Assembly: GCF_000023445.1 (NCBI RefSeq)
Contig: NC_012881.1
Span: forward strand, 1,989,501 to 2,053,500
DNA length: 64,000 nucleotides
Source of the DNA: Maridesulfovibrio salexigens DSM 2638
GTDB taxonomy: Bacteria; Desulfobacterota; Desulfovibrionia; Desulfovibrionales; Desulfovibrionaceae
Reading direction: 5' to 3'
A model generated the notes under the pieces. The model had not been told where the DNA came from and did no database searches. It saw nothing but the letters and a program-made list of their open reading frames with translations. Shown here piece by piece: positions 43,351-60,994 of the stretch (position 1 is the stretch's first letter; the number at the start of each line of letters is the position of its first letter). Both the position numbers and the translations under genes were made by a program.

Positions 43351-43452
43351 TTCCTTTGCTTGTAGTTACATGCGGAATTTATACCAGAACTGTGTTTTGT
43401 TTAATAATTTGAAATAATTGAACTAAATCTAGCAAAGAAGGTGGGTGGGCAC

Positions 43453-45205: not shown

Positions 45206-48200
45206 TTACGATGCTTTTGCTGGAGCAATGATTCTATCCAGCTCTAGGAGATAACCTTCATGTCGCCGCAGGTAAAAGGATAGTGGTTTCGAAAAGTTGT
45301 TGCCAATCAAGCCGTCAACTATAATGTGTGAGACTGATTTCTTTTCGTTGAGAATCTGTTGGGATGATCTGAATATTTCTTTTTCATCTTTTGACATGCC
45401 TCTGATTGCTTGTTGCAGTGCTTCTTTGGCCCTTGGCTGGTACATGCGCAGATAGAGCAGGTCCAAAGCGTTTGCCATTAATATGGAATCGTCATTGATA
45501 CCTCGGCTGCGGCAGAGCTTAATGAATTCGGCTGGACTTTCGAGTAGTGAAAGCAGGTCTTTGTTCGGGAATCTGACTTCCATTTCTGAGAAGAAATTCA
45601 GAACCTGACGTATTTTTTCTTCGTAATCCCATGAGCGGGCTATTATGTTTTCCTTGCGGTCTGCCATACCTTCAAGAAATCCAGCAGCAAAGTCCGAAGC
45701 CAGCTTTGATATGACTGCCGCCCATTGCTGAATGAGCATATCTATTTCCGGTACCCCGCAGATATAGAGAATTGCGGAAATGGTGTAACTGAAAACAATT
45801 GCAATGGGGATTGAAATTATGCTGCGAAAGAAATTGCCGAAGGCAGCCTCTTTAGGCAGTTCCCGCATGATATTGTGACCTGTTATGTATATGCCGTTGG
45901 TTATTGCCATGATCGTATAAAGCATGGTCGGGTCGGTGGTTACATTGATGTCGAACATTCTATCAAGTACCACGGATTTACATAACCAATCCAGCAGCGG
46001 CACAGAAAATCCTGTGAAGAGAAGGGAGTCGGCAATGCGGTTCCAGTTTATAAAGTCACTCCAGACCAGATAAGGGGATCGTTTGAGGCCGCCTCCACCA
46101 AGTATCGACTGAATGATGTTACGGAATCCGGTGATGGAAAACCAGATCAGGCCGCCCAGCCACGCCAGAACCCACCAGTCTTTAGTGAGGTAAAAAGTCA
46201 GAAAGGCCGGAATGAAGCCGATGATAATTTTAAATAAGTTCTTAAGCGTACTGTTGATATATTGCGGTTCGGTCTTGTTTACGGTATCCGGTTTTTGCCT
46301 GATCAATGAGAGCCCGTTTCCGGTATTTTGCGATAATCCTCCCAGAGGGCTGATGTTACCGCACTGTCCGTGTTCAATTTGATAGTTGGAAATTTCCCAT
46401 TTCTTTTCTTTGCGCTGTAATATTTCGCGCAATAGAAAGGCATCTTTTACGTGGCTTAGGAAATTGCTTGAAATCAGCGGAATGTTGCGCTGTGACATAT
46501 ATTTGATAACCAGAGACAAGTTTGCCGAAACAGGTAGACATTTTCTGTCTGGATTTTCTTTGATTTCCTTTCGCGCCCGTGGTGGCAGTGTATCGGCAAC
46601 AGCGAATCCCATACCGATGGCCCGCAATGAGCCCCCGGTTGAACCGCTTCCGATCCTTGTCCTGATTTTGCGATGCTTATAGCTGTTTTTCAGTTCCTCA
46701 ATATGCTGTTGAATATGAATGAGCTTTGCAAGCTGTTCATTCTGTTCGGGTTCTTTTCCTCTTTTTAATTTATCAACACAGCTGCGGACAATCTTTTTTA
46801 ATCCTATGGAGTTGCCTGTGTTCAGTGCCTGTTGCAACCTGTTGAACGGTACTCGGTTCGGGAAGTGTTCTTCTGTGATATTTTTGAGATTAATCAATTC
46901 AAAGTGCGTAATTCGTCCTTTGCATTCATATACAAGTTCCAGTGCATCTTCCAATTCCATATTTTCCAGAATCAGGGTTATTCTACTGGAAGGGCTTGCA
47001 CTGAGCAGCTTTCCCGTCAATCTGCTTGGCGAGAAAACTAAGGGGGCGGGGGCTTCCTTAGAAGCTGGCGGTCGATTAGGGTTCGGGAGTTCCGAATTGG
47101 CTTGCGGCGAAAGATAACGGACCGTGATCGTATCCGGATCAAGGAGATTGATGGAGTCCACCTGCTTGTCGATTCTGCTTTTTTCCTCAACGCTTGCAAC
47201 AAGGTATACAGCGGCAAGCTCCTTCACCCTCTGCTTGAAGTGGGGGAGTGAAATCTCATGAACATACTTTCCGAGATGGGTTAGGGTTGGTGCTATGGAT
47301 TTTAGGCTGTTCTGAAATTCCGTGTAATCAATTTCAGGAATTTTCACTCCGACTTCCCGTTCAATGGATTGCCGGTGCACAGAGTTAAATTTTGCAGTCA
47401 CACGGCGAATATATTCAGCATGTATTTTTTGCGATGTTTTCCCGAATTGCATGATCTCCTGCACCTTGGCGTTCTCGAAGAATTCAGCAATATCTTTTTG
47501 ATCTATAATATTTTTCGGGGTCCAAACAAATTTGACATACCGGTTGCGGACCACCGCTCTTAATTCAATTCCGAATTCTACTTTAATGTCCAGAATCTGC
47601 GCTGCGGAATACAGTTCTATTGCCACTTCCGGGGATAGGAAATCGTAATAAACAACCCTTAGCCTGCGAATGCCCTTTATCCATGCATCCATAACCAGAT
47701 GGGAAGCGGATTTTCTTCCTTTGCTATTCGCGTCGTGCACCCGATCATCAAATGTCAGCTGATTCCATTCCTCCGGCATTTCTAAAAGATGGTACTTTTT
47801 TAATTGCTCACGGATGAAGCTGCTTTTTCCGAAGGAAACACTTCTGAAATCATGTGCCAGCCTTAGTTGCTTCTGTTCATCGTTCCCGGATCTGATGATT
47901 TCCTTTGCGATTTGAATAAGAACCCGTGCTCTATTGTTGCGCAGGGTGGTCTTTGACGTGGCCATGACCTCATTTTTGAGTGCGGATAAAGCGTGCAGCC
48001 TTTCATTTACTTCATCAGATTCAAGAGAACCCAACAGGTTAAAAACAGCATAGGCAATTCGGATGCCGTAGGGGGCGGCCAGTTCTTTAATTCCATGCGG
48101 TTTTAAGTATGGGCTGAGCAGTGACCTGATGCGGGCTTGATCCTTTTTGCGGGAAAGAATGCTGTTGAAGAGTTCCACCAGCAAATAGTCGTTATGGTCG

Positions 48201-48226
48201 AAGTAGATGAAATTGTAACTAAGCAT
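45206..48226 (-). CDS. Large membrane protein of unknown function (1006 residues)
   Basis: A long soluble N-terminal region (about 660 residues) is followed by hydrophobic segments near 663-700, 740-790 and 805-825, then a helical C-terminus. Around residues 185-250 the text GIRRLRVVYYDFLSPEVAI, AAQILDIKVEFGIELRA and NRYVKFVWTPKNI resembles strands of a PHP/TIM-barrel-like domain. I cannot name the family. The start has aggag upstream and a candidate sigma-54 promoter 35-50 bases before it, divergent from the signalling operon. It is therefore probably coexpressed with the transporter and its regulators. Confidence 0.75.
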   Translation of the reverse strand: MLSYNFIYFDHNDYLLVELFNSILSRKKDQARIRSLLSPYLKPHGIKELAAPYGIRIAYAVFNLLGSLESDEVNERLHALSALKNEVMATSKTTLRNNRARVLIQIAKEIIRSGNDEQKQLRLAHDFRSVSFGKSSFIREQLKKYHLLEMPEEWNQLTFDDRVHDANSKGRKSASHLVMDAWIKGIRRLRVVYYDFLSPEVAIELYSAAQILDIKVEFGIELRAVVRNRYVKFVWTPKNIIDQKDIAEFFENAKVQEIMQFGKTSQKIHAEYIRRVTAKFNSVHRQSIEREVGVKIPEIDYTEFQNSLKSIAPTLTHLGKYVHEISLPHFKQRVKELAAVYLVASVEEKSRIDKQVDSINLLDPDTITVRYLSPQANSELPNPNRPPASKEAPAPLVFSPSRLTGKLLSASPSSRITLILENMELEDALELVYECKGRITHFELINLKNITEEHFPNRVPFNRLQQALNTGNSIGLKKIVRSCVDKLKRGKEPEQNEQLAKLIHIQQHIEELKNSYKHRKIRTRIGSGSTGGSLRAIGMGFAVADTLPPRARKEIKENPDRKCLPVSANLSLVIKYMSQRNIPLISSNFLSHVKDAFLLREILQRKEKKWEISNYQIEHGQCGNISPLGGLSQNTGNGLSLIRQKPDTVNKTEPQYINSTLKNLFKIIIGFIPAFLTFYLTKDWWVLAWLGGLIWFSITGFRNIIQSILGGGGLKRSPYLVWSDFINWNRIADSLLFTGFSVPLLDWLCKSVVLDRMFDINVTTDPTMLYTIMAITNGIYITGHNIMRELPKEAAFGNFFRSIISIPIAIVFSYTISAILYICGVPEIDMLIQQWAAVISKLASDFAAGFLEGMADRKENIIARSWDYEEKIRQVLNFFSEMEVRFPNKDLLSLLESPAEFIKLCRSRGINDDSILMANALDLLYLRMYQPRAKEALQQAIRGMSKDEKEIFRSSQQILNEKKSVSHIIVDGLIGNNFSKPLSFYLRRHEGYLLELDRIIAPAKAS

Positions 48227-48493: not shown

Positions 48494-48910
48494 ATGAGGA
48501 ACACAAGAATCATGCTTGTAGACGACGAGGAACGTCTGCTTTGCACTACCAAGAAGCTTTTCGAGAAATTGGGATTTGAAGTCTTGACCTGTACATCAGG
48601 AAAAGAAGCACTCGAATTGCTGGAGCAGACAGATGTTCACGTTGTCTTTCTTGACATCAAAATGCCGGGCATGGACGGCATCGAAACTTTGCAGCGAATC
48701 AAAAAAAAGTTCCCGTTTGTGGAAGTGGTTATCCTGACAGGGCACGCCTCAATGGAGGCGGCGGTAGAAGGCTTGAAATTAGGTGCATTCGATTTCTTGA
48801 TCAAACCGGTGAGTATGAAGGAGCTGCTTGAAAATGTAGAGGAGGCATCAGCAAAAATACACAGACAGAAACAACGATTTCTTTCGGCCCGGAAGGAAAA
48901 TCAGGAATAG
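48494..48910 (+). CDS. Stand-alone receiver-domain response regulator
   Basis: A 138-residue single receiver. Acidic pocket VDDEE (9-13), phospho-acceptor D54 in VFLDIKMPGMDG, switch threonine in ILTGHAS and lysine in LIKPVSM. After the receiver only about 15 basic residues remain, so there is no output domain. It is the first gene of the long operon running to 58971. As with other CheY-like single receivers it probably works as a phosphorelay intermediate or by protein contact. Confidence 0.9.
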   Translation: MRNTRIMLVDDEERLLCTTKKLFEKLGFEVLTCTSGKEALELLEQTDVHVVFLDIKMPGMDGIETLQRIKKKFPFVEVVILTGHASMEAAVEGLKLGAFDFLIKPVSMKELLENVEEASAKIHRQKQRFLSARKENQE

Positions 48911-48952
48911 GTTTTCCTTCCGGTTAAAGTTGAAATTAAAGGAGGTTACATA

Positions 48953-49852
48953 ATGGAAATTATCAAAGTCCTCATGGTTGATGATGAGGAACGTTTTCGC
49001 GAGACAACTGCAAAAATCCTTACCCGCAAGGGCTTCGAAACGATGCTTGCGGCTAGTGGAGAAGAGGCTCTGGATATGCTGTCCCATTCGCCGGATGTCA
49101 TCATTCTTGATGTCAGAATGGGAGGAATGAGCGGTCATGAAACCCTTGAAAGAATCAGGGAAAAGGATCCTGATATTCCCATCATTATGCTTACAGGCCA
49201 TGGCGATATTTCGGGGGCTAAAAAGGCCTATTCCGCAGGCGCTTATGACTATCTGGCAAAGCCCTGCGATATCGACCTGCTTGCAGCCAAAATCAATGAT
49301 GCATTTCACAGTGTGGCAAAAGTGAAGCTGCCGGAAAAATCGGTTGGAAGTGTGATGATTCCCCTTGATGAGTACACGGAGGTCGAAGCGGACAGCACCA
49401 TAAGCGAAGCAATTGCTGCTCTGCGGAAGTCTATGCAGGGGCTGGTTGCGACAAACAGACTCATGGAGTCCGGGCATCGCTCTGTAATCGCACGGAACGC
49501 GGACGGTAGTACTGCCGGTATCCTCAGTCCCCGCGATCTGCTTTATGCTGTTCTTCCTGAATACCTTTCAGCACCGAAGCCTTCCACTGCGGACAGTCTT
49601 CAATATTCGGCAATGTTTTGGGATGGCCAATTCACAACTCTTGCAGAGAAGCTTGCGGGCAGGACTGTTCGCTCTCTGCTGTCTGGAGAGTTCCTGACTA
49701 TTGAATCCTCAGCGAACCTTATGGATGCGACTAATGCCCTTATCACCTCAGGCAAGAGACGCATAATCGTTCAAGAGAACGGCATAGATGTTGGCATCGT
49801 CAGGGAGCAGGAACTCTTTTACGAAATAGCTCGAATTATTTCGTCCAGATAA
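48953..49852 (+). CDS. Receiver-CBS domain response regulator
   Basis: A 299-residue protein with an N-terminal receiver (D53 in ILDVRMGGMSG, GHGDI, AKPCDI) joined to a C-terminal CBS pair. The CBS parts are recognisable by SVGSVMIPLDEYTEVEADSTISEA, the HRSVIARNADGSTAGILSPRDLL strand, and a second unit TVRSLLSGEFLTIESSANLMDA ... GIVREQELF. CBS pairs bind adenine nucleotides or SAM, so the output may depend on energy state. It lies directly upstream of the transporter gene with aaaggagg as ribosome-binding site. Confidence 0.85.
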   Translation: MEIIKVLMVDDEERFRETTAKILTRKGFETMLAASGEEALDMLSHSPDVIILDVRMGGMSGHETLERIREKDPDIPIIMLTGHGDISGAKKAYSAGAYDYLAKPCDIDLLAAKINDAFHSVAKVKLPEKSVGSVMIPLDEYTEVEADSTISEAIAALRKSMQGLVATNRLMESGHRSVIARNADGSTAGILSPRDLLYAVLPEYLSAPKPSTADSLQYSAMFWDGQFTTLAEKLAGRTVRSLLSGEFLTIESSANLMDATNALITSGKRRIIVQENGIDVGIVREQELFYEIARIISSR

Positions 49853-49884
49853 TCACAGCAGATTTGCAATACAGGGGTAAACAT

Positions 49885-51735
49885 ATGTCAAACTCAAAGA
49901 AAAAAGCAACCGGATACGATAAGTTTGTCAACTGGAGGCTGCTGATTATTCCGGTGGTACTGTTTTTTATTATTCTGGCTTTGCCCACACCGCAGGGTAT
50001 GAAAAAAGTCGGGATGCAATATTCAGTAGGTCCGAAGGTTGTAACAAATTATATCAGCGAACAGCTTTTCGGTGCGGGAAGTGCTGCTGTGGAACAGTGG
50101 CAGGCGCTCACGGCGCGTATGATGGAACAGAACATGCGTATGGGCGCTTTAAGTAAGAAACGCTTCATGAGCCGTAACGAAAAGTGGGTCAAGAAATATA
50201 AGATTCCGGTTGATTCAGCCAACCTCGTTAAGGCCAGAGACTATGTGGATAAGAATATCTCTGATGAAGTCTTTTTGAATATTATGAAAAGTGCGTACAA
50301 CCTGCGCACAAAGAATTTGAATTATTCCGACCTTTCTCAAAACGATAAAAAGAACGCTGATGGCGGGGCATGGAAAATTAAAGTTGCCATTGCCATGGTC
50401 GTGTTTGTCGTCTTCTGCTTTATGACCGAGTGCATGCCCCTTCCGGGGGTGGCCTTCTGCATCGGGTTGATTCTGGTATTCTCAGGTGTTGTTACCCGAA
50501 GTCAGGTGGCCGGGTTGTACTGGAGTGATGCGGTTTGGTTTATCATGGGTTCGCTTATGTTCGCAGCAGCTTTCGTTAAAACGGGAGTGGACAAGCGCAT
50601 GTGCATGCTCATGTTCAAGAAGCTGGCTGTGCCTAATGTGCGCTGGATCACGCTCATCTTCTTCGTGGTCATCAGTCCGCTTGCGGCTTTCATTTCCGAC
50701 CACGCCCTTGCCGCAATGTTCCTGCCCATCGGTATGCTGCTTTATCAGAACAGCCTGACCGACGAAGTTCCTGAGGACAAGGAACTGGCTAAAATGCTCA
50801 TGATATCCATTGCCATGGCCTGTAACATCGGTGGTCCCGGTGCTCCTTCAGGCGGCGCCCGAAATGTAATCATGATGACATACCTTACTGATATGTTCGG
50901 TATGGACATCGGTTATGCACAGTGGATCATGTACTGCATGCCCTTCGTGATAGTTATGATTCCGCTTACCTGGATTGTCTGCAATATGCTTTTCAAGCCC
51001 CGGATTACTTCTTTGGCTCCGGCTATGCGTCATCTTGAAAGTGAAATCAATAAGATGGGCCGCTGGAACAGGGATCAGATCTGGGCCATGGTTATTTTCC
51101 TTGTCATGGTTTTCGGCTGGTTCACAGAAAAAGCTTTCTACAACATCGGCATCTACCCGATTCGCCTCGGTATCGGTGTAATCGCGGTTGCCGGTGCGGT
51201 GGCCTACCTGCTGGCCGGAGTTGTTAACTGGCGAGATTATCAGGAAAAAGTAGACTGGGGTGTTGTCTGGCTATACGCCGGTGCAATCATCTTCGGTAGA
51301 ACTCTTGACCAGACCGGTGCGGCATATTGGCTGGCTCAATCCTGCATCGATATGCTGGCTCCGCTGGGTATGAGTGAAGGTCTTCCCCTTATGCTGACCT
51401 CCAACGGCCTGACCGCGGTACTGACTAACCTGATGGCTGACGGACCTGCCGCGGCCGCAGTCGGTCCGATTACCCTGAATATGGCCAGTATCGTGCATCC
51501 CGGCACAACCTTCCTTCCCTTTATGGCTATGTCTACCGCAGTGGCATCATCATTTGCATACTGCCTGATCATTGGAACTCCCCCCAACGCAATCGTCTAC
51601 GCTTCCGGTTATCTGGAGCCGAAGGACTACCTGCGTGTGGGTATTCCCATGTGGTTTGTTGCGAACATTCTCATCATCCTGCTCACAGCGGTTTACTGGA
51701 GCGGAATAGGTTTCGGCAGCCTGCCGTCCTTCTAA
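49885..51735 (+). CDS. SLC13/DASS family sodium-anion symporter
   Basis: A 616-residue carrier. TM1 (LLIIPVVLFFIILAL) is followed by an unusual soluble insert of about 120 residues (residues 40-160, basic, helical). Then come the standard SLC13 spans with MPLPGVAF, SDHALAAMFLPIGMLL, the SNT-like CNIGGPGAPSGGARN and a C-terminal half ending in SSFAYCLIIGTPPNAIVYASGY. That last motif is typical of dicarboxylate/sulfate carriers. The start ATG at 49885 is chosen for aggggt upstream; an in-frame TTG lies at 49864. It is embedded in the receiver and kinase operon, so its substrate may be the sensed ligand. Confidence 0.88.
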   Translation: MSNSKKKATGYDKFVNWRLLIIPVVLFFIILALPTPQGMKKVGMQYSVGPKVVTNYISEQLFGAGSAAVEQWQALTARMMEQNMRMGALSKKRFMSRNEKWVKKYKIPVDSANLVKARDYVDKNISDEVFLNIMKSAYNLRTKNLNYSDLSQNDKKNADGGAWKIKVAIAMVVFVVFCFMTECMPLPGVAFCIGLILVFSGVVTRSQVAGLYWSDAVWFIMGSLMFAAAFVKTGVDKRMCMLMFKKLAVPNVRWITLIFFVVISPLAAFISDHALAAMFLPIGMLLYQNSLTDEVPEDKELAKMLMISIAMACNIGGPGAPSGGARNVIMMTYLTDMFGMDIGYAQWIMYCMPFVIVMIPLTWIVCNMLFKPRITSLAPAMRHLESEINKMGRWNRDQIWAMVIFLVMVFGWFTEKAFYNIGIYPIRLGIGVIAVAGAVAYLLAGVVNWRDYQEKVDWGVVWLYAGAIIFGRTLDQTGAAYWLAQSCIDMLAPLGMSEGLPLMLTSNGLTAVLTNLMADGPAAAAVGPITLNMASIVHPGTTFLPFMAMSTAVASSFAYCLIIGTPPNAIVYASGYLEPKDYLRVGIPMWFVANILIILLTAVYWSGIGFGSLPSF

Positions 51736-51746
51736 ACCGGAAAAAA

Positions 51747-51768
51747 GCGGCCGGCCCCGGTCGGCCGC
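51747..51768 (+). other. GC-rich hairpin after the transporter gene
   Basis: gcggccg pairs with cggccgc around an 8-base loop, between the transporter stop and the small membrane-protein start. No T tract, so it is likely an mRNA stabiliser or partial attenuator within the operon. Confidence 0.6.
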
Positions 51769-51786
51769 ACCTTAAGGGGGTAGACA

Positions 51787-51939
51787 ATGAAAACGGGAAA
51801 TAAGGTTGAAAAGAAATTTATTCATAAAAACGGAACCACATATTTTTCAAAAAGAACAGAACAGCAGATCCTTTTTGTGCTGACCTCAGCCATGCTTCTC
51901 TGGGGACTGGTTGAAGGGATCAGCAGTTATCTGAATTAG
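51787..51939 (+). CDS. Small single-pass membrane protein (50 residues)
   Basis: A 50-codon gene with an excellent ribosome-binding site (aaggggg six bases before ATG). The basic N-terminus MKTGNKVEKKFIHKNG is followed by one hydrophobic segment (ILFVLTSAMLLWGLVEGI) and the end SSYLN. The stop is nine bases before the next start codon, so it is cotranscribed and probably translationally linked. Its place straight after the transporter suggests a small auxiliary subunit. No family recognised. Confidence 0.78.
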   Translation: MKTGNKVEKKFIHKNGTTYFSKRTEQQILFVLTSAMLLWGLVEGISSYLN

Positions 51940-51948
51940 GAGTATGTC

Positions 51949-52500
51949 ATGACTAATACACAGGCACCGTCGGTGAAAATGGGAGTGCGGGAATATCTGG
52001 AATCTCTAATCTTCATTATACGTTCTCCGGCTTCATTTTTTGAGAGCGCTAACGATGAAACAGGCAGCAGGCGCGCGCTTCTTTTCCTGATGATTTCAGG
52101 CCTGTTCTACTGTTCGGTCAGTATGACCTATTTTTTTGAAAATTCACTGATAATGGGCGTGGTTATGATGATCAACGCTGTGTTTATGCCTGCTCTGGGC
52201 GCATGTTTCTCATTTTGCATTATGCGGATGATGACTCCGTCTATGGCTTCTTACTCCTGTGTTTTTAATGTTTATGCCTACTCCAGCGGAGCGGTGATGG
52301 TCATTTCATGGATACCGGGATTGGCTGTTGTAATGGAGCCGGTCCGGGCCATCCTTGTGGGGGTGGGGCTCTATAAAACCGGAAAACTGGGCAGGTTCCA
52401 ATCTTTCATAACTGTGGTGCTGACAGCTGTTCTGCTTTTGTTGTTTTTCTGGACTGTTGCGCCGCTTGTTATAGCCATTCGTGATTTTCAAGTAAATTAG
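51949..52500 (+). CDS. Yip1-like integral membrane protein
   Basis: A 183-residue protein with five hydrophobic segments. The N-terminal cytoplasmic part includes the phrase IIRSPASFFESANDETGSRRALLFL, which resembles the start of Yip1/YIF1-domain proteins (a short amphipathic region before the first span). The rest is membrane: SGLFYCSVSMTYFF, VVMMINAVFMPALGACFSF, SSGAVMVISWIPGL, FITVVLTAVLLLLFFWT. The function of bacterial Yip1 proteins is unknown. Cotranscribed with the transporter and the small membrane protein. Confidence 0.72.
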   Translation: MTNTQAPSVKMGVREYLESLIFIIRSPASFFESANDETGSRRALLFLMISGLFYCSVSMTYFFENSLIMGVVMMINAVFMPALGACFSFCIMRMMTPSMASYSCVFNVYAYSSGAVMVISWIPGLAVVMEPVRAILVGVGLYKTGKLGRFQSFITVVLTAVLLLLFFWTVAPLVIAIRDFQVN

Positions 52501-52549
52501 TCCATCATATTTTGTGACCGCATAATGCTGATCACCACCCCCCTCATCA

Positions 52550-52578
52550 GCAGGCCGGGAAACTCCCGCCCGGCCTGC
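52550..52578 (+). other. GC-rich hairpin inside the operon
   Basis: gcaggccggg pairs with cccggcctgc around a 9-base loop, 26 bases before the next receiver gene. It has no T tract and may partly separate transporter expression from the signalling genes downstream. Confidence 0.65.
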
Positions 52579-52604
52579 GTCTGGGTGGATCAAGGAGAAA
52601 GAGA

Positions 52605-52988
52605 ATGAAAAGTATCCATGTTCTTCTAGTCGATGATGAAAATGATTTCCTTATTGCTTATAAGCGCCGTCTTATTCGCCGCAATGTTGAAGTCAGTGTT
52701 GCCTCAAGCGGTTTAGCAGCCTTGCGGATGGTCGAGGATGCCGATTTTGACGCAATTGTGCTGGATATCCTGATGCCAGAAATGAACGGGATTGAAACAT
52801 TGAAGCGTTTAAGGGCGGTGAAGCCTGAAATACCGGTAATTATTCTGACCGGACACGCAAATATGGAAGCTCTTTCACAAGTCTCGGGAGGAGGGGCTTT
52901 TGACTACCTGCTTAAGCCGGTCAGTACCGAAGAATTGTACTTCAAGATTATGGATGCTGTTCGAGAAGCCAGAATCAGAATTCGTTGA
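52605..52988 (+). CDS. Stand-alone receiver-domain response regulator
   Basis: A 127-residue single receiver with VDDEND (9-14), phospho-acceptor D54 in IVLDILMPEMNG, switch residues in ILTGHAN and the lysine in LLKPVSTEE. No output domain. It sits 15 bases before the PEP-synthase-like gene, which suggests its phosphorylation controls, or is linked with, that protein. Ribosome-binding site aaggaga. Confidence 0.9.
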   Translation: MKSIHVLLVDDENDFLIAYKRRLIRRNVEVSVASSGLAALRMVEDADFDAIVLDILMPEMNGIETLKRLRAVKPEIPVIILTGHANMEALSQVSGGGAFDYLLKPVSTEELYFKIMDAVREARIRIR

Positions 52989-53003
52989 TGCAGGAGGCAG
53001 GAT

Positions 53004-55574
53004 ATGCGTACTTTCATAAATGCAATTTCCCGTATATTGAGAAATCCTTCTGCTGATGATCGCAATTCCTCAGCACGTTTCCTTGAGCGATGTGAAAATT
53101 TCCGTCTGCTGCTTTCCGCCAATAACAGTGCCCTCAAAAGGATGGCGGAACTGACTGAAGCCTCCCGCAGTGTTAAGCCTGTAGGGATGACCTATATCCG
53201 GGCTGAAAATATCAGGATATCCGCTGATGTGCGCAATATGATTGAGCGGCTATGCCGTATTGCTCCCGGAAGGTACGAGGGACTGAAGGATGCTTTCAAC
53301 AGGATTCTGATGTTGATGAATAAAGAGCTTGCAGCTGATGTTGAGAGGGTTTCCGGGCCAAACATCATCAATCTCCACGAATTGAATTCCGGCCTGATAT
53401 CAGAGGCAGGATCAAAGATGGCTTTGCTGGGTGAGGTGGCATCTATCCCCGGTATTCGCGTTCCCGAAGGTTTTTCTATTACCGCTTCTGCCTTCAGAGT
53501 ATTGTTGTTGGAAACCGGTCTGGGTGAGGAATTAAAAAGGGTGGCCCAGATTTGCGGTGAAGAGAACTATGCAACTCTTAGGGTTTTGGAAAGAAACGTC
53601 CGCGAAGCCATCAGCCTTTGTCAATTTCCTCAGGATCTTGAAAATGAAATTTCCGAAGCAGTAGAGCAACTGGCTGCGGGGCGAAGAGTGTCTCATGCCG
53701 TGCGCAGCAGTGCTCTTTGTGAAGATAGTTTGGAAACAAGTTTTGCAGGACAATTCCATACAGAGCTGGGCGTTGCTGCTGATGAGATAGTGGAGGCGTA
53801 CCGCAATGTAATTGCCAGCATGTATACTGCCTCCGCTGTTACCTATCGCCTGAATCACGGAATACGTGATGATGAGATGGTTATGTGCGTTGGGTGTGTG
53901 GAAATGATTGATGCCGTGGCAGGCGGTGTCGCCTACAGTAGTGATCCTTCAGGTCTTCATGAAGGACAGATAGTTGTTTCAGCTGTGCATGGTCTCCCCA
54001 GCAGTATTGTCGACGGGGTTACCAGAAGTGATCTTTGGCGGTTGGACAAGGATTCTCTTGCAGTAATCTATGAGGAGATAGTTGATCAGGAGTGGGGCCG
54101 CTTTATGGCTTTTGACGGAAGTGTTGCCCGCCGAAGGCTGGAGCCGGATCAAGTGAATCAGCCTGCGATAGATCATGATGTGCTTGTCCGCATAGGCCAG
54201 ACAGTACTGGACCTCGAAGATCATTTTGATTGCCCTCAGGATATGGAATGGGCTTTGACAGGCGATGGGATACTGTATGTTTTGCAATGCCGTCCTTTGG
54301 GAATAATGGCGCAGCAGCATGTACAGGAAAGCGTTAATGACGATCATAAATTTCCAGTCATTGTGGATTCCTGCCAGCCCGCCAGCTCAGGAATCGCATC
54401 AGGAATTACCTACTACATCGAACATGCCCACGACATGATCGATTTCCCCTTCGGGGGAGTCCTCCTTACCAGAGTCGCCGGTCCCGAACTGGCGGCTCTG
54501 CTCCCGGATGCCTCCGCTGTGATAGCTGAATTCGGTAGTTGTACCGGACATCTGGCAAATGTGGCCCGTGAATATGATATTCCCGCTTTGATTGGTGTTC
54601 CCGATGCAGTTGAGAAGTTGAAGGGAGCAGGAGAGGTCATAGTTGACGCTGTGCAGGGCCGCATCCTTTCAGGAAGTCTTGGCAATAATGATAAGCCGCG
54701 CAAAGCCTTTAATACGGAGACTCCGGTACGCAAAGCTCTCTGTTCAGTACTCAAGCTGATTACCCCCCTGACTTTGACCGATCCCCGCAGCCCGGATTTT
54801 CTCCCGGAAAGATGTAAAACCCTGCACGACATAACCCGTTTCTGCCATGAAAAAGCCGTAGCAGAAATGTTTAAAAAGCGTGCCGGAATTGATGATTCCG
54901 CAAGGCAGATGGTGGACGGAGACAGGCTGCAATACTGGATTATTGATCTTGGGGGAGGAGTTTCAGATAACAACGCTTCCAATGATGATGGATACGTGCG
55001 TTTCGAGGATATCCGTTCCAATGCAATGAGGTCCTTGTGGTCCGGAATGACCGGTTTTCCATGGGAAGGGCCACCCGATGTATGTGCTGACGGATTTGCT
55101 TCGGTTCTTTTCGGGGCCACCTGCAATCCGGCTCTGGTTCCGGGAGTTCGCAATAGTATGGGGGAACGCAGCTATTTCATCGTGGGTCGGAATTATTGCA
55201 GCTTACAGTCCCGATTGGGTTTTCATTATTGCACCATTGAAGGCTTTGCCGCTGATGATGCTGAAATGAATTACGTTCTCTTTCAGTTTAAGGGCGGAGC
55301 TGCGGATATGGGCAGGAGGTCTTTGCGATTGCAGTTGGTGGCCGAAATACTGGCGGAGCATGGATTTCATACCTCTGTCCGTGATGATGTGCTGTTTGCC
55401 CGTATGGAAGGTATCTCTTTGGAAATGGCCGAGCGAGGATTAGTTGTCGCCGGATACCTGCTTGTGCAGACCAGGCAGCTGGACATGATCATGAAGGACG
55501 GTGCTGCCGTTGAGAACTACAGGAATAAATTCCGCAGGGAAATTGAAGTCCTGCTCTCCGGGGGTGGAAAATGA
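53004..55574 (+). CDS. PEP-synthase-like phosphotransferase lacking the PEP-binding barrel
   Basis: An 856-residue protein with an N-terminal helical domain (1-125) and a PPDK/PEP-synthase ATP-grasp domain (about 130-435). That domain shows VRSSALCEDSLETSFAGQF (R234 onwards) and PQDMEWALTGDGILYVLQCRP. A swivelling phosphohistidine domain follows with H516 in CTGHLANVAREYDIPAL. The last 300 residues do not show the TIM barrel that binds PEP/pyruvate. This layout, ATP-grasp plus swivel histidine plus an unfamiliar acceptor domain, recalls rifampin phosphotransferase. I infer ATP-driven phosphoryl transfer to an unknown substrate or protein, in a pathway of receivers and kinases. It overlaps the next gene by four bases. 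Confidence 0.8.
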   Translation: MRTFINAISRILRNPSADDRNSSARFLERCENFRLLLSANNSALKRMAELTEASRSVKPVGMTYIRAENIRISADVRNMIERLCRIAPGRYEGLKDAFNRILMLMNKELAADVERVSGPNIINLHELNSGLISEAGSKMALLGEVASIPGIRVPEGFSITASAFRVLLLETGLGEELKRVAQICGEENYATLRVLERNVREAISLCQFPQDLENEISEAVEQLAAGRRVSHAVRSSALCEDSLETSFAGQFHTELGVAADEIVEAYRNVIASMYTASAVTYRLNHGIRDDEMVMCVGCVEMIDAVAGGVAYSSDPSGLHEGQIVVSAVHGLPSSIVDGVTRSDLWRLDKDSLAVIYEEIVDQEWGRFMAFDGSVARRRLEPDQVNQPAIDHDVLVRIGQTVLDLEDHFDCPQDMEWALTGDGILYVLQCRPLGIMAQQHVQESVNDDHKFPVIVDSCQPASSGIASGITYYIEHAHDMIDFPFGGVLLTRVAGPELAALLPDASAVIAEFGSCTGHLANVAREYDIPALIGVPDAVEKLKGAGEVIVDAVQGRILSGSLGNNDKPRKAFNTETPVRKALCSVLKLITPLTLTDPRSPDFLPERCKTLHDITRFCHEKAVAEMFKKRAGIDDSARQMVDGDRLQYWIIDLGGGVSDNNASNDDGYVRFEDIRSNAMRSLWSGMTGFPWEGPPDVCADGFASVLFGATCNPALVPGVRNSMGERSYFIVGRNYCSLQSRLGFHYCTIEGFAADDAEMNYVLFQFKGGAADMGRRSLRLQLVAEILAEHGFHTSVRDDVLFARMEGISLEMAERGLVVAGYLLVQTRQLDMIMKDGAAVENYRNKFRREIEVLLSGGGK

Positions 55575-57253
55575 AGGCTTTCCACTATCTTCAGCTAAAA
55601 TGGAAATTGACTGCAACAGCTCTGTCTTTTTCGCTTATCCCCTTATTTCTGTTAGGTTTTGTCCTGCACGGTCAGTTCAGTGAATCTTATGAGGATAAGT
55701 TACGCAGCAATTTACGGCTGACTGTACTCAATAAGGCTGATGCCATTGATATGTTCCTGGAGGAACGTGTCGTTCAGTTACAGAACATCGCCAATACCAA
55801 CTTCTTTTCTGAAATTTCAAATCAGGAAAAGCTGAATAGTCTTTTTGATGCCATTTACAGCACATCGAATTCCTTCATCGATCTTGGCGTTTTCGATCAG
55901 CAGGGCAATCACGTTGCCTATTGCGGGCCTTACGATTTGAAGAACATCAACTATCAGGATCAGCGCTGGTTTAATCAGGCCATGCTTAAAGGGGTTTTCA
56001 TCAGTGATGTTTTCATGGGCTACAGGAATTTTCCGCATTTTGTAATAGCCGTTAAGCGCAGGGAACAGGGGCGGACATGGATACTGCGCGCTACCATTGA
56101 CTCAGATGTATTCAATTCATTGGTAAGTAATGTTCGGACAGGTCAACTAGGCGATGCTTATCTGATCAATTCCAACCTGTTGCTGCAAACATCATCCAGA
56201 CGCGGCGGAGATGTTCTTTCCAAAGCAATCCTTCCTGAGTTTTCCCCCGGCGGCAACGTAGAGATAATCAAATGGAATGATCACGGAACCCGAATGGTGG
56301 CCGGGATAATGCAATTAAACATGGTTGATTGGAGCCTCGTTGTTCTTGAGAATCCTGAGGAGGAGCTTTCTCCGGTCATTCGGGACCAGTCACTTGTATT
56401 TGTCCTGCTTTTTGTCTGCGCCCTGATGATTTCCATCGGGACATATTTCGTTATTACTTCCATTGTCCGCAAATTGATGACTGCGGATAAAGAAAAATCT
56501 CTTATGGATGCCACGGTCATGCAATCCTCCAAGATGGCTTCACTTGGAAAGATGGCAGCCGGAGTAGCGCATGAAGTCAATAATCCTCTTTCCATTATCA
56601 GGGAAAGTGCCGGATGGATCAGGGACATGATTTCCGATGGCGGTTTTGAAGGGGTTAAAGATCTTCCGAATCTGGAAGAGGCTCTTGGGGATATTGAACG
56701 CCATGTGGAACGGGCCCGTTCTGTAACACACAGAATGCTTGGTTTCGCGCGCAGTATGGAACCGGCGCAGGATGATGTCGATCTTAATCAACTGGTCCGG
56801 GAGACCGTTTCATTTCTCGATAATGAAATTTTATACCGGACTATCTGGGTCTCCTACGATCTCAGTCCGGACCTTCCTTCTATTTCTACTGATTTCAATC
56901 AGGTTCAGCAGGTTGTTTTGAACCTCATGGAGAATGCAATTGATGCCGTAGGAAATGACGGCTCAATCAAGCTTTCAACCCGTAGTAACGGTGATTTTGT
57001 CGAGCTTGAGATTGCTGATTCTGGTCCGGGAATCCCGCCGGAGCTTCTCAGTAAGGTCTTTGATCCTTTCTTTACCACCAAGTCAGCCGGGGAAGGCACC
57101 GGATTAGGACTTTCCATCATTTATACGATCCTCAAAAGAGTTGGAGGAAGCGTTAAGGCCAGAAATCTGCCTGAAGGCGGAGCTCAATTCATTGTGCGGT
57201 TGCCGCTGGTGAATAGGAATACCTACATACAGGAGGAAGTATGTCCAGAATAA
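55571..57253 (+). CDS. Membrane sensor histidine kinase (dCache)
   Basis: A 560-residue kinase: TM1 (TALSFSLIPLFLLGFVL), a periplasmic double-Cache domain (LGVFDQQGNHVAYCG, YQDQRWFNQAMLKGVF, GDAYLINSNLLLQTSS), TM2 (LVFVLLFVCALMISIGTYF), and a cytoplasmic HisKA/HATPase core with H334 in AHEVNNPLS and the G1/G2 boxes DSGPGIP and GTGLGLS. The Cache layout is very like that of the kinase at 43453, so both may detect the same class of ligand. It overlaps the upstream PEP-synthase-like gene by 4 bases and the downstream receiver by 13. Confidence 0.92.
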   Translation: MKAFHYLQLKWKLTATALSFSLIPLFLLGFVLHGQFSESYEDKLRSNLRLTVLNKADAIDMFLEERVVQLQNIANTNFFSEISNQEKLNSLFDAIYSTSNSFIDLGVFDQQGNHVAYCGPYDLKNINYQDQRWFNQAMLKGVFISDVFMGYRNFPHFVIAVKRREQGRTWILRATIDSDVFNSLVSNVRTGQLGDAYLINSNLLLQTSSRRGGDVLSKAILPEFSPGGNVEIIKWNDHGTRMVAGIMQLNMVDWSLVVLENPEEELSPVIRDQSLVFVLLFVCALMISIGTYFVITSIVRKLMTADKEKSLMDATVMQSSKMASLGKMAAGVAHEVNNPLSIIRESAGWIRDMISDGGFEGVKDLPNLEEALGDIERHVERARSVTHRMLGFARSMEPAQDDVDLNQLVRETVSFLDNEILYRTIWVSYDLSPDLPSISTDFNQVQQVVLNLMENAIDAVGNDGSIKLSTRSNGDFVELEIADSGPGIPPELLSKVFDPFFTTKSAGEGTGLGLSIIYTILKRVGGSVKARNLPEGGAQFIVRLPLVNRNTYIQEEVCPE

Positions 57254-57654
57254 AGCTGCTTGTGGTGGATGACGAGGCTGATTTCTTGAAACTGGTCAAA
57301 AGAAGACTTGAAAGAAGGAATTTTGATGTTGAAGTGGCTTCCGGTGGTGCTGAGGCTTTGCATTTTCTTTCCGCCAATCCTGTGGATGTAGTCATTCTTG
57401 ATGTGAGGATGCCCGGTATGAGCGGCATGGATGCTCTGAAGCATATGCGCCGCAAGCATAGTGAAGTGGAAGTGATCATGCTCACGGGCCATAGCTCGGT
57501 TGCTTCCGGATTGGAGGGAATAAGCCACGGGGCCTACGATTACATTCTTAAACCCTTTGAAATCGATGATCTTATCGAAAGGATTCGGAGCGCTCATGAG
57601 CATGCAGTACTTAGGCGTGAAGGCGGAGGCGGGAATGTCAGCTCTGGAAGTTAG
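57241..57654 (+). CDS. Stand-alone receiver-domain response regulator
   Basis: A 137-residue receiver with VDDEAD (9-14), D54 in VILDVRMPGMSG, MLTGHSS, and ILKPFEIDD, and a glycine-rich C-terminal tail with no output domain. The start lies inside the end of the kinase gene at 55571, so it is most likely that kinase's direct partner; the following kinase gene starts inside its 3' end. Confidence 0.92.
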   Translation: MSRIKLLVVDDEADFLKLVKRRLERRNFDVEVASGGAEALHFLSANPVDVVILDVRMPGMSGMDALKHMRRKHSEVEVIMLTGHSSVASGLEGISHGAYDYILKPFEIDDLIERIRSAHEHAVLRREGGGGNVSSGS

Positions 57655-58549
57655 AGATCTTAATCTGCTACGGCATGTTTTCTTAGGTCTTGCATTGATT
57701 GGCGTTGCAGGATCGTTGATCAATGCAGGGTACGGCACCTGCGTTGAGATTATAGCTGCTGTGGCAGGTTTTTCGTTGCTTGGGTTTATTTTGCAGGAAT
57801 TGCGGCGTGCGAGGCGTAAAAGTCTTGAGCTGGAAGGTCAGCTTGTTCAGCTCAAGCGTATGAATTCTTTTGACGAGATGTCTGCCGGGATAGCCCATGA
57901 AATTAACAATCCTCTGAATATAATCATGCAAGAGGCTGAAATTATAAGGGTTAACATTGAATTTTCAGAGAGTTGCCTGCTCACAGACGAGATTGATGAG
58001 AGTATTGGGGTCATCAGGGCGCAGGTAAGACGGTGTTCGGAAGTTACTCGTAAACTGCTGGATATGGGGCGAAAAAGACTGCCTGTAACCCAGCAGGTGG
58101 ACATCAATAAATTACTGAAGGGAATGCTCGCGCTGGTGGATGAAGAAGTGGGCGGTAAGAAAATAAAAGTTGTCCGGGACATTCCTTCCGGTGCGCTTTC
58201 AGTCAATACAGATCCTCCGCTGCTGCGGCAGGTTTTCTTGAATCTCCTTAAAAATGCAATTCAGGCTGTCGGCCATAGGGGGGAGATTGTCATTTCCAGC
58301 AGGCGGGAAGGCGGAAAGGTTGTTGTCCGTGTTGCGGATAACGGTGTCGGAATAGCTGAAGATAAACTTCCTCATATATTTACTCCCTTTTTCACGACCA
58401 AAAGTCCTGAAGAAGGGACAGGAATCGGTCTCGCCGTAAGTCTTCGTATTATCAATCAACTGGGAGGAACCATCGATGTAGAGTCTTCTGTCGGCAAGGG
58501 GACAGTCTTTTCGGTGGCGATTCCCGTAAATGGAGCAAGGTCGTCATGA
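57635..58549 (+). CDS. Histidine kinase with short membrane anchor, no periplasmic sensor
   Basis: A 304-residue kinase. Two close N-terminal hydrophobic helices (LRHVFLGLALIGVAGSLI and IIAAVAGFSLLGFIL) form an anchor with almost no periplasmic loop. HisKA follows, with H88 in AHEINNPLN, and a HATPase with NLLKNAIQAV, DNGVGI and GTGIGLAV. The ATG at 57635 has ggagg five bases upstream; an in-frame ATG at 57557 would lie further inside the receiver gene. With no sensor of its own it may be driven by a membrane partner or act as a relay kinase. It overlaps the receivers on both sides. Confidence 0.88.
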   Translation: MSALEVRDLNLLRHVFLGLALIGVAGSLINAGYGTCVEIIAAVAGFSLLGFILQELRRARRKSLELEGQLVQLKRMNSFDEMSAGIAHEINNPLNIIMQEAEIIRVNIEFSESCLLTDEIDESIGVIRAQVRRCSEVTRKLLDMGRKRLPVTQQVDINKLLKGMLALVDEEVGGKKIKVVRDIPSGALSVNTDPPLLRQVFLNLLKNAIQAVGHRGEIVISSRREGGKVVVRVADNGVGIAEDKLPHIFTPFFTTKSPEEGTGIGLAVSLRIINQLGGTIDVESSVGKGTVFSVAIPVNGARSS

Positions 58550-58971
58550 ACAGCAAAGGACGGATTCTGATTGTCGATGATGAGGATCGGTTCAGGGAAA
58601 GTCTGAAACGTATTCTTGAGAAGTTCGGATTTGATGCTGTGGCCGTTGCTGACGGAATGGCTGCCCTGCATGTGCTTGAAAGGGGGGAGGTGGATGTTGT
58701 CCTGTTGGACAGCAATATGCCTAACCTTCCGGGAGAGGATGTTTTCACGATTATTAAAAAACATGGAATCGCTGTGGAAATAATTCTCCTGACGGGTTTT
58801 CCGATCATTGAAAATGCTCTCAAGATGATGCGCAACGGCGTATTTGATTATCTGGCAAAGCCGGTGTCAATCGAGCAGCTTTTATCTGTGATCGGGTTGG
58901 CGGTGGAAAACAAGCGGATCAGGAATTGGGATACGGGTGCTGTAGATATTCTCAACAATAATGTTGACTGA
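58546..58971 (+). CDS. Stand-alone receiver-domain response regulator
   Basis: A 141-residue receiver: VDDED (10-14), D55 in VLLDSNMPNLPG, LLTGFPI in place of the usual TGH, and LAKPVSIEQ. There is no output domain. It is the last gene of the operon and overlaps the short-anchored kinase gene by four bases, so it is that kinase's likely partner. Confidence 0.9.
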   Translation: MNSKGRILIVDDEDRFRESLKRILEKFGFDAVAVADGMAALHVLERGEVDVVLLDSNMPNLPGEDVFTIIKKHGIAVEIILLTGFPIIENALKMMRNGVFDYLAKPVSIEQLLSVIGLAVENKRIRNWDTGAVDILNNNVD

Positions 58972-59023
58972 CGTTGTCCTTTTTCCCGGTTAAACAACGT
59001 AAAGTATGGCGCATGGAGTCATT

Positions 59024-60994
59024 ATGAGTATCAAAGCAAAATTAATGTTGGTGTTTATGACATCATTTTTGGGCCTTGTTGCTATTTTCGGCGTTAACTA
59101 TTGGGGTGACAGGGTCATTGAAAACAGCCGTAAGGTTGAGATGCTTGCAAATGAAGGGGTTGAATTGTTTCTGCAAGCGAGGAGGCAGGAGAAGAATTTC
59201 CTGTTGCGTATGGATTCTTCGTCTTTTGAAAAGGCCATTAAGCATGCGGATGATTCTGTAAAGAAAGTGAAAGAGGTTGAGGCCCTTTCATTTGAATTGA
59301 AAGAGCCCTGCGTCAAGGTTGTTAGCTTTATTGATGCCTATAAGAAATATCTGACTGAAGTGCATAATCACTATGTATCAAAAGGTCTTACCATGAATGA
59401 AGGGCTGCGTTGGAATTTCATTAATGCGGCAAGAAACATGGAGGAAGCTTTCAAGGAAGGCACAATCAATTCCGAATTGTTGATTCTTGTCCTTCAGATG
59501 CGCAGACAGGAGAAGAACTATATAATTCGCGGTGGTGAAACCCCGGTTAAGCGTGTTGATTCCATGATCTTGCGGATCAGGGATGAGGTGCGTGCTGCCT
59601 TTCCCGAAGAGCGTGCCAAGACTCTGCTGACTGCTCTGGATGATTACAGCGAAGCCTTTCATGAATACATTGCGCTGGAGAATTCCATAATCAAGCTTAA
59701 GGCCGAGCTCATTATGTCCGCTCGGGCTGTAGAACCTTTATATGATAAAATTCTGACGATCAGTTCCGAAAGATTGGAGCATGATTCTGCCGTAATCGGA
59801 TACACGGTTATAGCGATAGAAGTCGCTGTAGGAGTTGCGGTCCTGTTCATATTGCTCTGGGTCATGCTAACGGTTTCATCTTCGTTGAAAAGGCTAGGAG
59901 GGTACGCCAAGTCCGTGGCTGGCGGAGATCTAGACTGCGAGCCGGAAGGACGGTTTGCTGCCGAATTGCAGGAACTGCGTGATGTGCTGGTCGGTATGGT
60001 CGGGCAACTCAAGGCTGGAATTGATGAAGCCCGTGCTCTCGAACAGGATGCCGTAAATCAGGCCGCTCTTGCGGAGAAAGCCAGAGATGAGGCAGTTGAG
60101 CAGCAGAACTATACCTTATCGCTCATGGAGAAAATTACCGGAGCATCCGCCCGGGCCGAAGCAATTGTTCTCAGGCTGACCGAGGCTTCCGCTGATTTAA
60201 AAATCAGGACTCAAGCAATTGCAGACGGGGCTTTAGAGCAGCAGGGGCACATGAATGCTTCAGCAACTGCCGTAGAGCAAATGCATATTACCGCCAGAGA
60301 AGTTGCGGAAAACGCGGAGGGGGTTTCTTCCACCGCTAATGATGCCAGAAAAGAAGCCGGTGGCGGAATTGAAGTAGTATTTAAGGCCAGAGATGCCATG
60401 AGTATGGTTTCCGGGACGGTTTCAAGCCTAGAGACCGATATGGTCAGCCTCGGAACCGAGATCGAATCTATAGGTGAAGTTGTCGGCGTAATTAATGAGA
60501 TAGCCGATCAGACAAACCTGCTGGCCCTTAACGCCGCTATTGAAGCTGCCCGTGCCGGGGAAGCTGGAAAAGGATTTGCTGTAGTAGCTGACGAAGTTCG
60601 CAAGCTCGCCGAAAAGACTATGGTTGCTACTAAAGAAGTGGATAAATGCATTTCCAGCATTCAGGACCGGACTCACGAAAATATTGAGGGAGTCAAGAAA
60701 GCTCTCGCCTTTGCGTGTTCGGCTGATAGTGAGGTTAATAATTCCGTGGATGTATTCAAGCATATTCAGGGGTTGTCTGATCATGTGGCTGAAAAAATCG
60801 AAGGTATAGCACTCGCAGCCACCCAGCAGTCTGTAGCATCCAAAGATATTGAGAAAACGGTTTCACATATAGCTCAGCTGGCAGAAGGTTCAACTGACAG
60901 CGCACAGCAGTCAGCATGCTCAATTGCCGACCTAGCAATGATGGCAGAAGAGTTACAGGATGCCATTGTGCAGCTTAATTCCGGTAGTAATTAG
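59024..60994 (+). CDS. Methyl-accepting chemotaxis protein with HBM sensor
   Basis: A 656-residue chemoreceptor. TM1 ([18 protein letters not shown]) precedes a long all-helical periplasmic sensor with two repeated RRQEKNFLL / RRQEKNYII motifs, the signature of the helical bimodular (HBM) domain. TM2 and a HAMP domain follow. The signalling hairpin tip is [20 protein letters not shown] then [15 protein letters not shown], well conserved. HBM receptors such as McpS respond to organic acids, which would fit the dicarboxylate-type carrier upstream. The start at 59024 has ggag upstream; an in-frame ATG exists at 59006. Whether it is cotranscribed with the operon is uncertain (52-base gap). Confidence 0.92.

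Follow-up and report, generated by a model that had tools for sequence, protein, structure and literature searches.

The window (the whole stretch of 64,000 nucleotides analysed here, from Maridesulfovibrio salexigens DSM 2638) carries an operon of eleven genes on its forward strand, at 48494..58971. The operon starts with a single receiver (receiver 1, 48494..48910; PF00072, E 4e-32, phosphorylation-site residues kept) and a receiver-CBS protein (48953..49852; PF00072 and PF00571), followed by a DASS carrier with an N-terminal extension of ~165 residues (49885..51735; PF00939, E 3e-48), most likely starting at ATG 49885. Downstream are a 50-residue single-helix membrane peptide (51787..51939), with relatives in the loci L039, L057, L123, L125, and L126, and a Yip1-like four-helix membrane protein (51949..52500). 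The PF04893 match of the latter (E 1.5e-5, score 25.4) is below the cut-off of 28.6, and its family occurs in 10 of 141 stretches, the window included. Receiver 3 (52605..52988; PF00072) lies directly 5' of the gene for a PEP-synthase-like protein with PPDK_N and PEP-utilizers domains (53004..55574), hereafter PPSL. The remaining genes encode a dCache sensor histidine kinase (kinase 1, 55571..57253; dCache_1, HisKA, and HATPase_c), receiver 4 (57241..57654; PF00072), a membrane-anchored histidine kinase (kinase 2, 57635..58549; HisKA and HATPase_c), most likely starting at ATG 57635 with GGAGG upstream, and receiver 5 (58546..58971; PF00072). The preliminary description counted ten genes, but the parts it listed sum to eleven; all these parts, i.e., four single receivers, the receiver-CBS protein, the DASS carrier, the peptide, the Yip1-like protein, PPSL, and two histidine kinases, are present.

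From 55571 onwards, the genes overlap by 4, 13, 20, and 4 bases, in agreement with the 4-20 bases described initially. The further claim of a single transcription unit is likely to be correct overall; however, the first half of the operon has intergenic gaps of 9-104 bases and a GC-rich hairpin between the carrier and peptide genes (51747..51768). Terminator-like sites between genes were not enriched, with 20 observed and 17.1 in shuffled sequences.

Several neighboring genes may be linked to the operon. A further dCache sensor histidine kinase (43441..45126, forward strand; dCache_1, HATPase, and HisKA) is a probable upstream member, encoded on a separate transcript here; a kinase of this type is found just 5' of receiver 1 in L036, L038, and L040, and also in L039, with a 52-aa ORF in between. 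The divergent gene on the reverse strand (45206..48226) encodes a 1006-aa protein without a Pfam match, and is conserved in the same position in L034, L035, L122, L123, L125, and L126. The next gene downstream, encoding a methyl-accepting chemotaxis protein (59006..60994, forward strand; MCPsignal), has the same position in L034 and L035, and its membership is uncertain.

All five receivers retain the acid pair, the threonine, and the lysine, and the acceptor aspartate is visible in the translations. Four of them consist of the receiver domain alone and thus have the features of phosphorylatable stand-alone receivers. The Pfam search yielded no DNA-binding domain in any of the five, as had been claimed initially.

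The carrier is assigned to the DASS family by matches to PF00939 and TIGR00785 above the curated cut-offs, and its solved relatives include VcINDY and PHO90. The SNT motifs of VcINDY, which we take to have a role in substrate and sodium binding, are replaced at the aligned positions by SDH and ADG. Given this departure, sulfate is not certain to be the substrate.

PPSL is built of an N-terminal helical bundle, an ATP-grasp domain, a swivelling phosphohistidine domain, and a C-terminal domain that replaces the PEP barrel (predicted model, pLDDT 88). Its only Pfam matches are PF01326 (ATP-binding) and PF00391 (mobile phosphohistidine), both expected of PpsA, and His516 is kept in 69 of 69 sequences; judging by sequence, the ATP-to-histidine half of PPSL is intact. 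The closest solved folds are PEP synthase and rifampin phosphotransferase, and the ATP-grasp and swivelling domains are common to PPSL and these two enzymes as well as pyruvate phosphate dikinase. Unlike all three, PPSL has an extra N-terminal helical bundle and no Pfam match to the PEP/pyruvate barrel. With the barrel missing and a score of 265 bits to TIGR01418 (pyruvate, water dikinase), well under the cut-off of 740, PPSL is not a normal PEP synthase. Its C-terminal domain, again unlike those of the three enzymes, had no Pfam match and no match in PDB at E<=0.001 (best E 0.055), but is conserved, with a cluster of C, H, D, R, H, and E residues. We also considered the N-terminal bundle as an HPt domain and rejected this, as the consensus RYH reads RCE in the window, and hence there is no conserved histidine at this position.

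To describe the distribution of PPSL, we used a C-terminal profile (A1), since a search with the full-length protein, with hits in at least 49 of 58 relatives, also picks up sequences that match only over the ATP half and are probably true PEP synthases. With this profile, PPSL was found in 107 of 297 sampled genomes of the host phylum. Of these 107 genomes, 102 have dsrA, and completeness is 62-80% for the remaining five. In a second phylum, dsrA is present in 49 of 55 genomes with PPSL, and in a further set in all seven (the genome of L154 shares its dsrA place with G194 and so was already counted). The operon is one of a family of gene clusters, largely uncharacterised, that is widespread among sulfate-respiring bacteria.

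The composition of these clusters is also conserved. Counted on stop-to-stop frames, a carrier (TSUP or DASS), a short receiver, and a kinase co-occur in 41 of 45 named PPSL loci and in 37 of 58 stretches from relatives (the carrier is absent from 20 and the short receiver from 14), but in none of 20 control regions. The order of all eleven genes is complete in L034 and L039, and nearly complete in L035, L036, L038, and L040. The preliminary description had staked its reading on conservation of the gene set, which is indeed kept in relatives. These genomes are rich in receivers and kinases, and a kinase occurs in 4 of the 20 control regions, so common signalling genes might have gathered around a carrier by chance; the conservation refutes this explanation, leaving it a negligible probability. 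Moreover, among the PPSL matches listed, 25 of 128 DASS genes in the 58 relatives have their start no more than 12.5 kb from that of a PPSL gene, compared with 2.5 expected. This count covers 128 of 129 DASS places, omitting a 147-residue fragment, and at least 149 PPSL places, omitting the second piece of one gene.

A receiver (PF00072) and a DASS carrier (PF00939) form one protein in four genomes (L223, L224, L225, and L249). A candidate fifth fusion, in G199, was rejected, as the receiver there is a separate adjoining ORF. The loci comprise 60 distinct DASS genes, including these four fusions; 38 of the 60 have a receiver (10), CBS (15), or receiver-CBS (13) gene directly upstream. SPX-DASS transporters are regulated via SPX by inositol pyrophosphates, in whose place a phosphorelay would stand here. 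Like the receiver-DASS fusions, these transporters, e.g., PHO90 (PDB 8r33), have an N-terminally fused cytosolic regulatory domain, while the fusions carry a receiver where SPX stands. We also compared the N-terminal extension of DASS with a TSUP-linked 229-aa membrane protein, and ruled out homology that would indicate a shared gating part (hhalign probabilities 0.9 and 1.9%).

The receivers could instead be intermediates of an ordinary transcriptional phosphorelay ending at remote DNA-binding regulators, with the carrier as a target gene or a co-sensor. A sigma54-type response regulator is encoded in at least 13 of 41 named loci, a lower bound, as the simple gene caller used overlooks some genes where contigs are GC-rich. 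In the same-genus relatives L036 and L040, the operon is followed by a regulator of this type. In D. vulgaris, the TSUP/universal-stress cluster DVU0539-DVU0545, implicated in the molybdate response, resembles the operon in combining a putative sulfate-exporter-family carrier with a kinase and a response regulator, and is reported to be driven by the DNA-binding DVU0539 (PMC10102598, PMC3333781). Unlike the operon, this cluster has a DNA-binding regulator, and its description names no PPSL gene (PMC10102598). On the other hand, no sigma54-type regulator was called in the other 28 of these 41 loci, and in the fusions the receiver is part of the carrier protein. Such a relay thus seems rather doubtful to us.

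The literature search, among the matches listed, produced no paper describing the module as such, but the genetics of a related cluster is available. This is the Desulfovibrio "nitrate cluster", DVU0251-DVU0245 and Dde_0597-Dde_0605 (Korte et al., 2014, PMC4001038). Like the window, it combines in a single block a PPSL-like protein, a single receiver, a sensor kinase, and a carrier; however, its carrier is a TSUP permease, not DASS, it has one receiver rather than five, and it encodes a periplasmic phosphonate-binding-like protein and a tyrosine phosphatase where the window has the receiver-CBS, Yip1-like, and 50-aa proteins. The gene order and Pfam domains of the nitrate cluster recur in L214, including the C-terminal signature of PPSL, although the L214 and window PPSL are only 30% identical. 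A TSUP gene also accompanies the paralogue of the window PPSL (G000:C1:2413027, L032). The preliminary description knew of no described system of this composition; a closely related one has been published, albeit with a TSUP permease and with no mechanism.

In the nitrate cluster, insertions in the permease, membrane protein, receiver, or PPSL gene each abolish inhibition by nitrate, and isolates mutated in DVU0246 (PPSL), DVU0247 (receiver), DVU0250, or DVU0251 (TSUP) grow equally with and without 100 mM nitrate, the pooled and isolate data for DVU0250 being in conflict (PMC4001038). The G20 mutants are mildly sick on thiosulfate (unpublished data cited in PMC4001038). Loss of PPSL phenocopies loss of the permease although this cluster encodes no DNA-binding regulator, which further argues against the transcriptional relay. 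Together with the receiver-DASS fusions and the receiver and CBS genes preceding DASS, these mutants support direct control of transport, as initially suggested in place of DNA output; the sigma54-type regulators speak against it, as do the stretches of relatives that lack a carrier or a short receiver and several results on the nitrate cluster. Besides the conflicting DVU0250 data, these are the D. vulgaris kinase DVU0248, annotated as a pseudogene, whose mutant isolate has little or no advantage on nitrate, the phosphatase mutant of D. vulgaris, which is not resistant, and the resistance that also arises when the transcription regulator Rex is lost (PMC4001038).

PPSL could also have a metabolic role and, as PEP synthase and rifampin phosphotransferase do with theirs, phosphorylate the substrate once imported or a product made from it, with the signalling genes only regulating supply. 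Its intact ATP-grasp domain and catalytic histidine, the nearest solved folds, and the conserved residue cluster in the C-terminal domain are all consistent with this. However, PPSL of one and the same family works with both DASS and TSUP carriers, which are unrelated. Moreover, loss of PPSL relieves inhibition by nitrate, while no nitrate metabolism was found (PMC4001038), which fits a role in entry better than one in metabolism. We consider a metabolic role unlikely.

The reading that we favor, with confidence only slightly above even, is that the operon represents the DASS type of a module by which sulfate/sulfite respirers control a carrier: receivers without DNA output, together with a phosphohistidine enzyme driven by ATP, would gate a carrier of sulfur oxyanions. 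The membrane kinases, two in the operon and one upstream, would sense an outside cue and phosphorylate the stand-alone receivers and the receiver-CBS protein. Binding of these to the carrier, or to the small membrane proteins that accompany it, would open or close the carrier, and the CBS domains would contribute an energy signal in the form of adenylates. PPSL would phosphorylate its own His516 from ATP, and its swivelling domain would deliver the phosphate to an acceptor presumably held by the C-terminal domain, this step being required for a working carrier. A sulfur oxyanion, be it sulfate, thiosulfate, or sulfite, is the probable substrate.

A bolder and quite improbable version casts PPSL as a protein phosphotransferase of a new kind, charging its own histidine from ATP and passing the phosphate to the aspartate of the stand-alone receivers or to the carrier, a function that would have replaced the lost PEP barrel. 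The opening of the carrier would then be set by two convergent phosphate inputs, the outside signal (the kinase) and the ATP state (PPSL and CBS), without gene regulation.

Marietou 2018 (PMC5840216) describes high-affinity sulfate uptake as being off at high sulfate, which saves energy. For the long-standing question of how sulfate respirers turn anion uptake on and off, the module offers a concrete target, tied to dsrA in two phyla and, in some species, with receiver and carrier joined in one protein. It also bears on nitrate, which is applied against oil-field souring, as a possible route of its entry and inhibition in these bacteria. If the carrier-control reading is true, a secondary carrier would be under direct control of a two-component receiver.

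The genome that carries the window (at 1989501-2053500) is a single contig of 4,289,847 bases, and the operon at 48494-58971 encodes, in order, a receiver, a receiver-CBS protein, a DASS carrier, a 50-residue peptide, a Yip1-like protein, a receiver, the PEP-synthase-like protein (PPSL, 53004-55574), a dCache kinase, a receiver, a kinase, and a receiver. All parts listed in the preliminary description are present according to ORFs and Pfam, but they form eleven genes rather than ten. Also confirmed were the gene overlaps (4, 13, 20, and 4 bases at the junctions from PPSL to the fifth receiver, within the 4-20 bases reported) and the lack of Pfam DNA-binding domains in the receivers. The phosphorylation site is kept in every operon receiver (the acid pair, T, and K, with the acceptor aspartate seen in the translations). 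The divergent neighbour (45206-48226, minus strand) encodes a 1006-residue protein with no Pfam matches, and is kept in six compared loci (L034, L035, L122, L123, L125, and L126). Right behind the carrier gene (51747-51768) lies a GC hairpin of seven pairs that resembles a terminator on the minus strand; it could act in transcript stabilisation or processing, but hairpin-type sites are not more frequent than in shuffles.

PPSL has two Pfam domains, ATP-grasp (134-444) and mobile histidine (484-552), and no others. Its solved sequence relatives, PEP synthases and rifampin phosphotransferase, align with the first two thirds of the protein, and a PEP synthase and rifampin phosphotransferase are also the top Foldseek matches of the full model (pLDDT 88, pTM 0.79), in which an N-terminal helical bundle is an extra part. 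K138, R234, E415, Q428, R430, and H516, which we take to be the PPDK catalytic residues, do not vary in 59 aligned members. The PEP barrel is missing, its place being occupied by a different C-terminal domain, where C604 is found in 69 of 69 members and H608, D609, R612, H615, and E616 are invariant in 59 of 59. This domain has no relative among PDB sequences, where one chance match reached E 0.5. A structural model of it (pLDDT 85) had no Foldseek match in PDB at E <= 0.001, the best being 0.055. In L222, a stretch of genome G097, the PPSL match lies inside an open frame of 1833 residues, possibly a fusion or a gene-calling artefact.

The gene set is conserved, as had been proposed for checking: PPSL, single receivers, and the DASS carrier recur in the same arrangement in relatives. 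It is complete in L034 and L039, complete but for one small gene that the gene caller missed in L035, L036, L038, and L040 (the same contig as L124), and recognisable with more genes missed by the caller in L122, L123, L125, and L126, three of which are labelled as or close to Pseudodesulfovibrio. A scan with a profile of window-like members confirmed at least 555 of at least 584 stretches, and the best 80 were taken as named loci, which are therefore biased toward the window type. Co-occurrence was counted on stop-to-stop frames, short receivers being receiver frames under 300 residues. Among 45 of these loci (at least 15 kb), a TSUP or DASS carrier was present in 43, a short receiver in 44, a kinase in 42, and the full set of three in 41; the respective numbers were 38, 44, 52, and 37 for 58 of 60 stretches chosen in relatives from the PPSL matches listed, where the carrier was missing in 20, and 1, 2, 4, and 0 for 20 fixed-position control regions. 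Of 128 DASS genes in 58 relatives, 25 had their start no more than 12.5 kb from that of a PPSL gene, where 2.5 would be expected (129 DASS places less a 147-residue fragment, and 149 PPSL places among the matches listed, the second piece of one gene being omitted). Clustering of ORFs from 141 stretches without prior labels (cluster names are ours, members Pfam-checked) placed PPSL first, in 133 stretches, ahead of two-component proteins in 117, TSUP carriers in 64, larger response regulators (receiver-CBS among them) in 63, a 229-residue membrane protein in 56, and DASS in 30. The 229-residue protein, which matches no Pfam family and has two membrane helices, goes with TSUP carriers in many loci (e.g., L032, 2733-3422). 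PPSL also occurs as a second type that forms a gene pair with a dual-specificity phosphatase (around 8128-9258 in L033, PPSL lying next to it; this is the one locus where the phosphatase was Pfam-checked), with similar pairs in L073, L075, L076, L080, L081, L084, L087, and L090; none of these stretches has a carrier.

In several clusters, the receiver is joined to the carrier. Single frames of 680, 680, and 701 residues (L223, L224, and L225) contain a receiver (12-130 or 33-154) followed by a complete DASS carrier, and L249 has a similar frame of 692 residues; both domains are Pfam-confirmed in all four. These fusions, found by screening the gathered ORFs for fused domains after long open frames had been noticed rather than by a full survey, come from four genomes in three families (G034 and G047 belong to one genus). 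Their clusters hold kinases, and that of L225 also PPSL. A fifth candidate, in G199, was rejected as not fused. Among 60 distinct DASS genes, 38 have a REC, CBS, or REC-CBS gene directly in front of them on the same strand, no more than 400 bases away, and four are fused, figures that count each close orthologue and describe the loci gathered for this module, not DASS genes generally. On the structural side, the strongest case for an action of the receivers on the carrier is that REC, CBS, and carrier are shuffled together, either within one operon or within one chain. This agrees with the non-transcriptional control suggested earlier. Two observations speak against a purely non-DNA output: a sigma54-type regulator is also present in 13 or more of the 41 named loci, and a TSUP cluster of D. 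vulgaris has a DNA-binding regulator (PMC10102598, PMC3333781).

Published genetic data exist for a homologous cluster, the poorly annotated DVU0251-DVU0245/Dde_0597-0605 (Korte et al. 2014, PMC4001038), which encodes a TauE permease, a conserved protein, a phosphonate-binding-like protein, a kinase, a receiver, a PEP-utilising protein, and a tyrosine phosphatase, and is a TSUP version, whereas the window operon is a DASS version. Single insertions in DVU0246, DVU0247, DVU0250, and DVU0251 of D. vulgaris allowed equal growth with and without 100 mM nitrate, while the DVU0245 insertion did not (PMC4001038). L214 has the same gene order with DUF169 in front, and its six scanned proteins are Pfam-confirmed; its PPSL, 30% identical to that of the window, has the signature CKSLHDLVRFVHE, which in the window PPSL reads CKTLHDITRFCHE. 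DVU0246 is equated with PPSL on the basis of its domains and the gene order. If that order is as in L214, inserting into PPSL can have no polar effect on the permease, and PPSL itself would be needed. The authors suggested that nitrate enters via a leaky thiosulfate transporter (PMC4001038). Several of their observations count against the mechanism that we propose below: the D. vulgaris kinase DVU0248 is an annotated pseudogene, and the isolate mutated in it gained little or nothing (2.34 was the pool score of the G20 homologue), DVU0250 had low pool fitness, and nitrate resistance also arose from loss of the transcription regulator Rex (PMC4001038). Other clusters with TSUP and PPSL, as well as universal-stress-like proteins and a large response regulator (L074, L077, L078, L079, and L082), resemble the molybdate-responsive cluster DVU0539-0545.

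The preliminary description knew of no system of this composition, and our literature search found no paper describing the module as such; the nearest, Korte et al. (PMC4001038), covers the genetics of one TSUP version and offers no mechanism. As far as the literature was searched, novelty lies in the DASS version, in the fusion of receiver and carrier, in the linkage to dsrA, and in a C-terminal domain that has no fold match.

PPSL is linked to dsrA, a gene of dissimilatory sulfite reductase. Profile A1, built from 40 sequences of the C-terminal domain and applied at E <= 1e-10, located PPSL, often in several copies, in 107 of 297 genomes sampled from the phylum of the window, and dsrA (TIGR02064) in 144: 102 had both, five only PPSL, and 42 only dsrA (odds ratio 72, the genomes being related and not independent). 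The five exceptions have completeness of 62-80%. In 198 genomes of a second phylum (that of L164, whose record is labelled Nitrospirae), 55 had PPSL (E <= 1e-20), 87 dsrA, and 49 both (odds ratio 23, six PPSL exceptions). Moreover, dsrA was present in seven of seven genomes chosen behind PPSL loci labelled Nitrospirae (two), Myxococcota, Thermoleophilia, and "bacterium" (three), although in the genome of L154 its place is the same as in G194, so that this genome is not a new case. Given these counts, the PPSL family goes with dissimilatory sulfite reductase.

In the mechanism we propose, the operon kinases would phosphorylate the receivers, which together with the CBS domains would gate the carrier, while PPSL would be required for transport and would pass phosphate from ATP via His516 to a putative acceptor. 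In the alignment, the window carrier reads SDH and ADG at the SNT signature motifs of DASS, and hence it may carry something other than the substrates known for DASS; the carried ion is probably a sulfur oxyanion.
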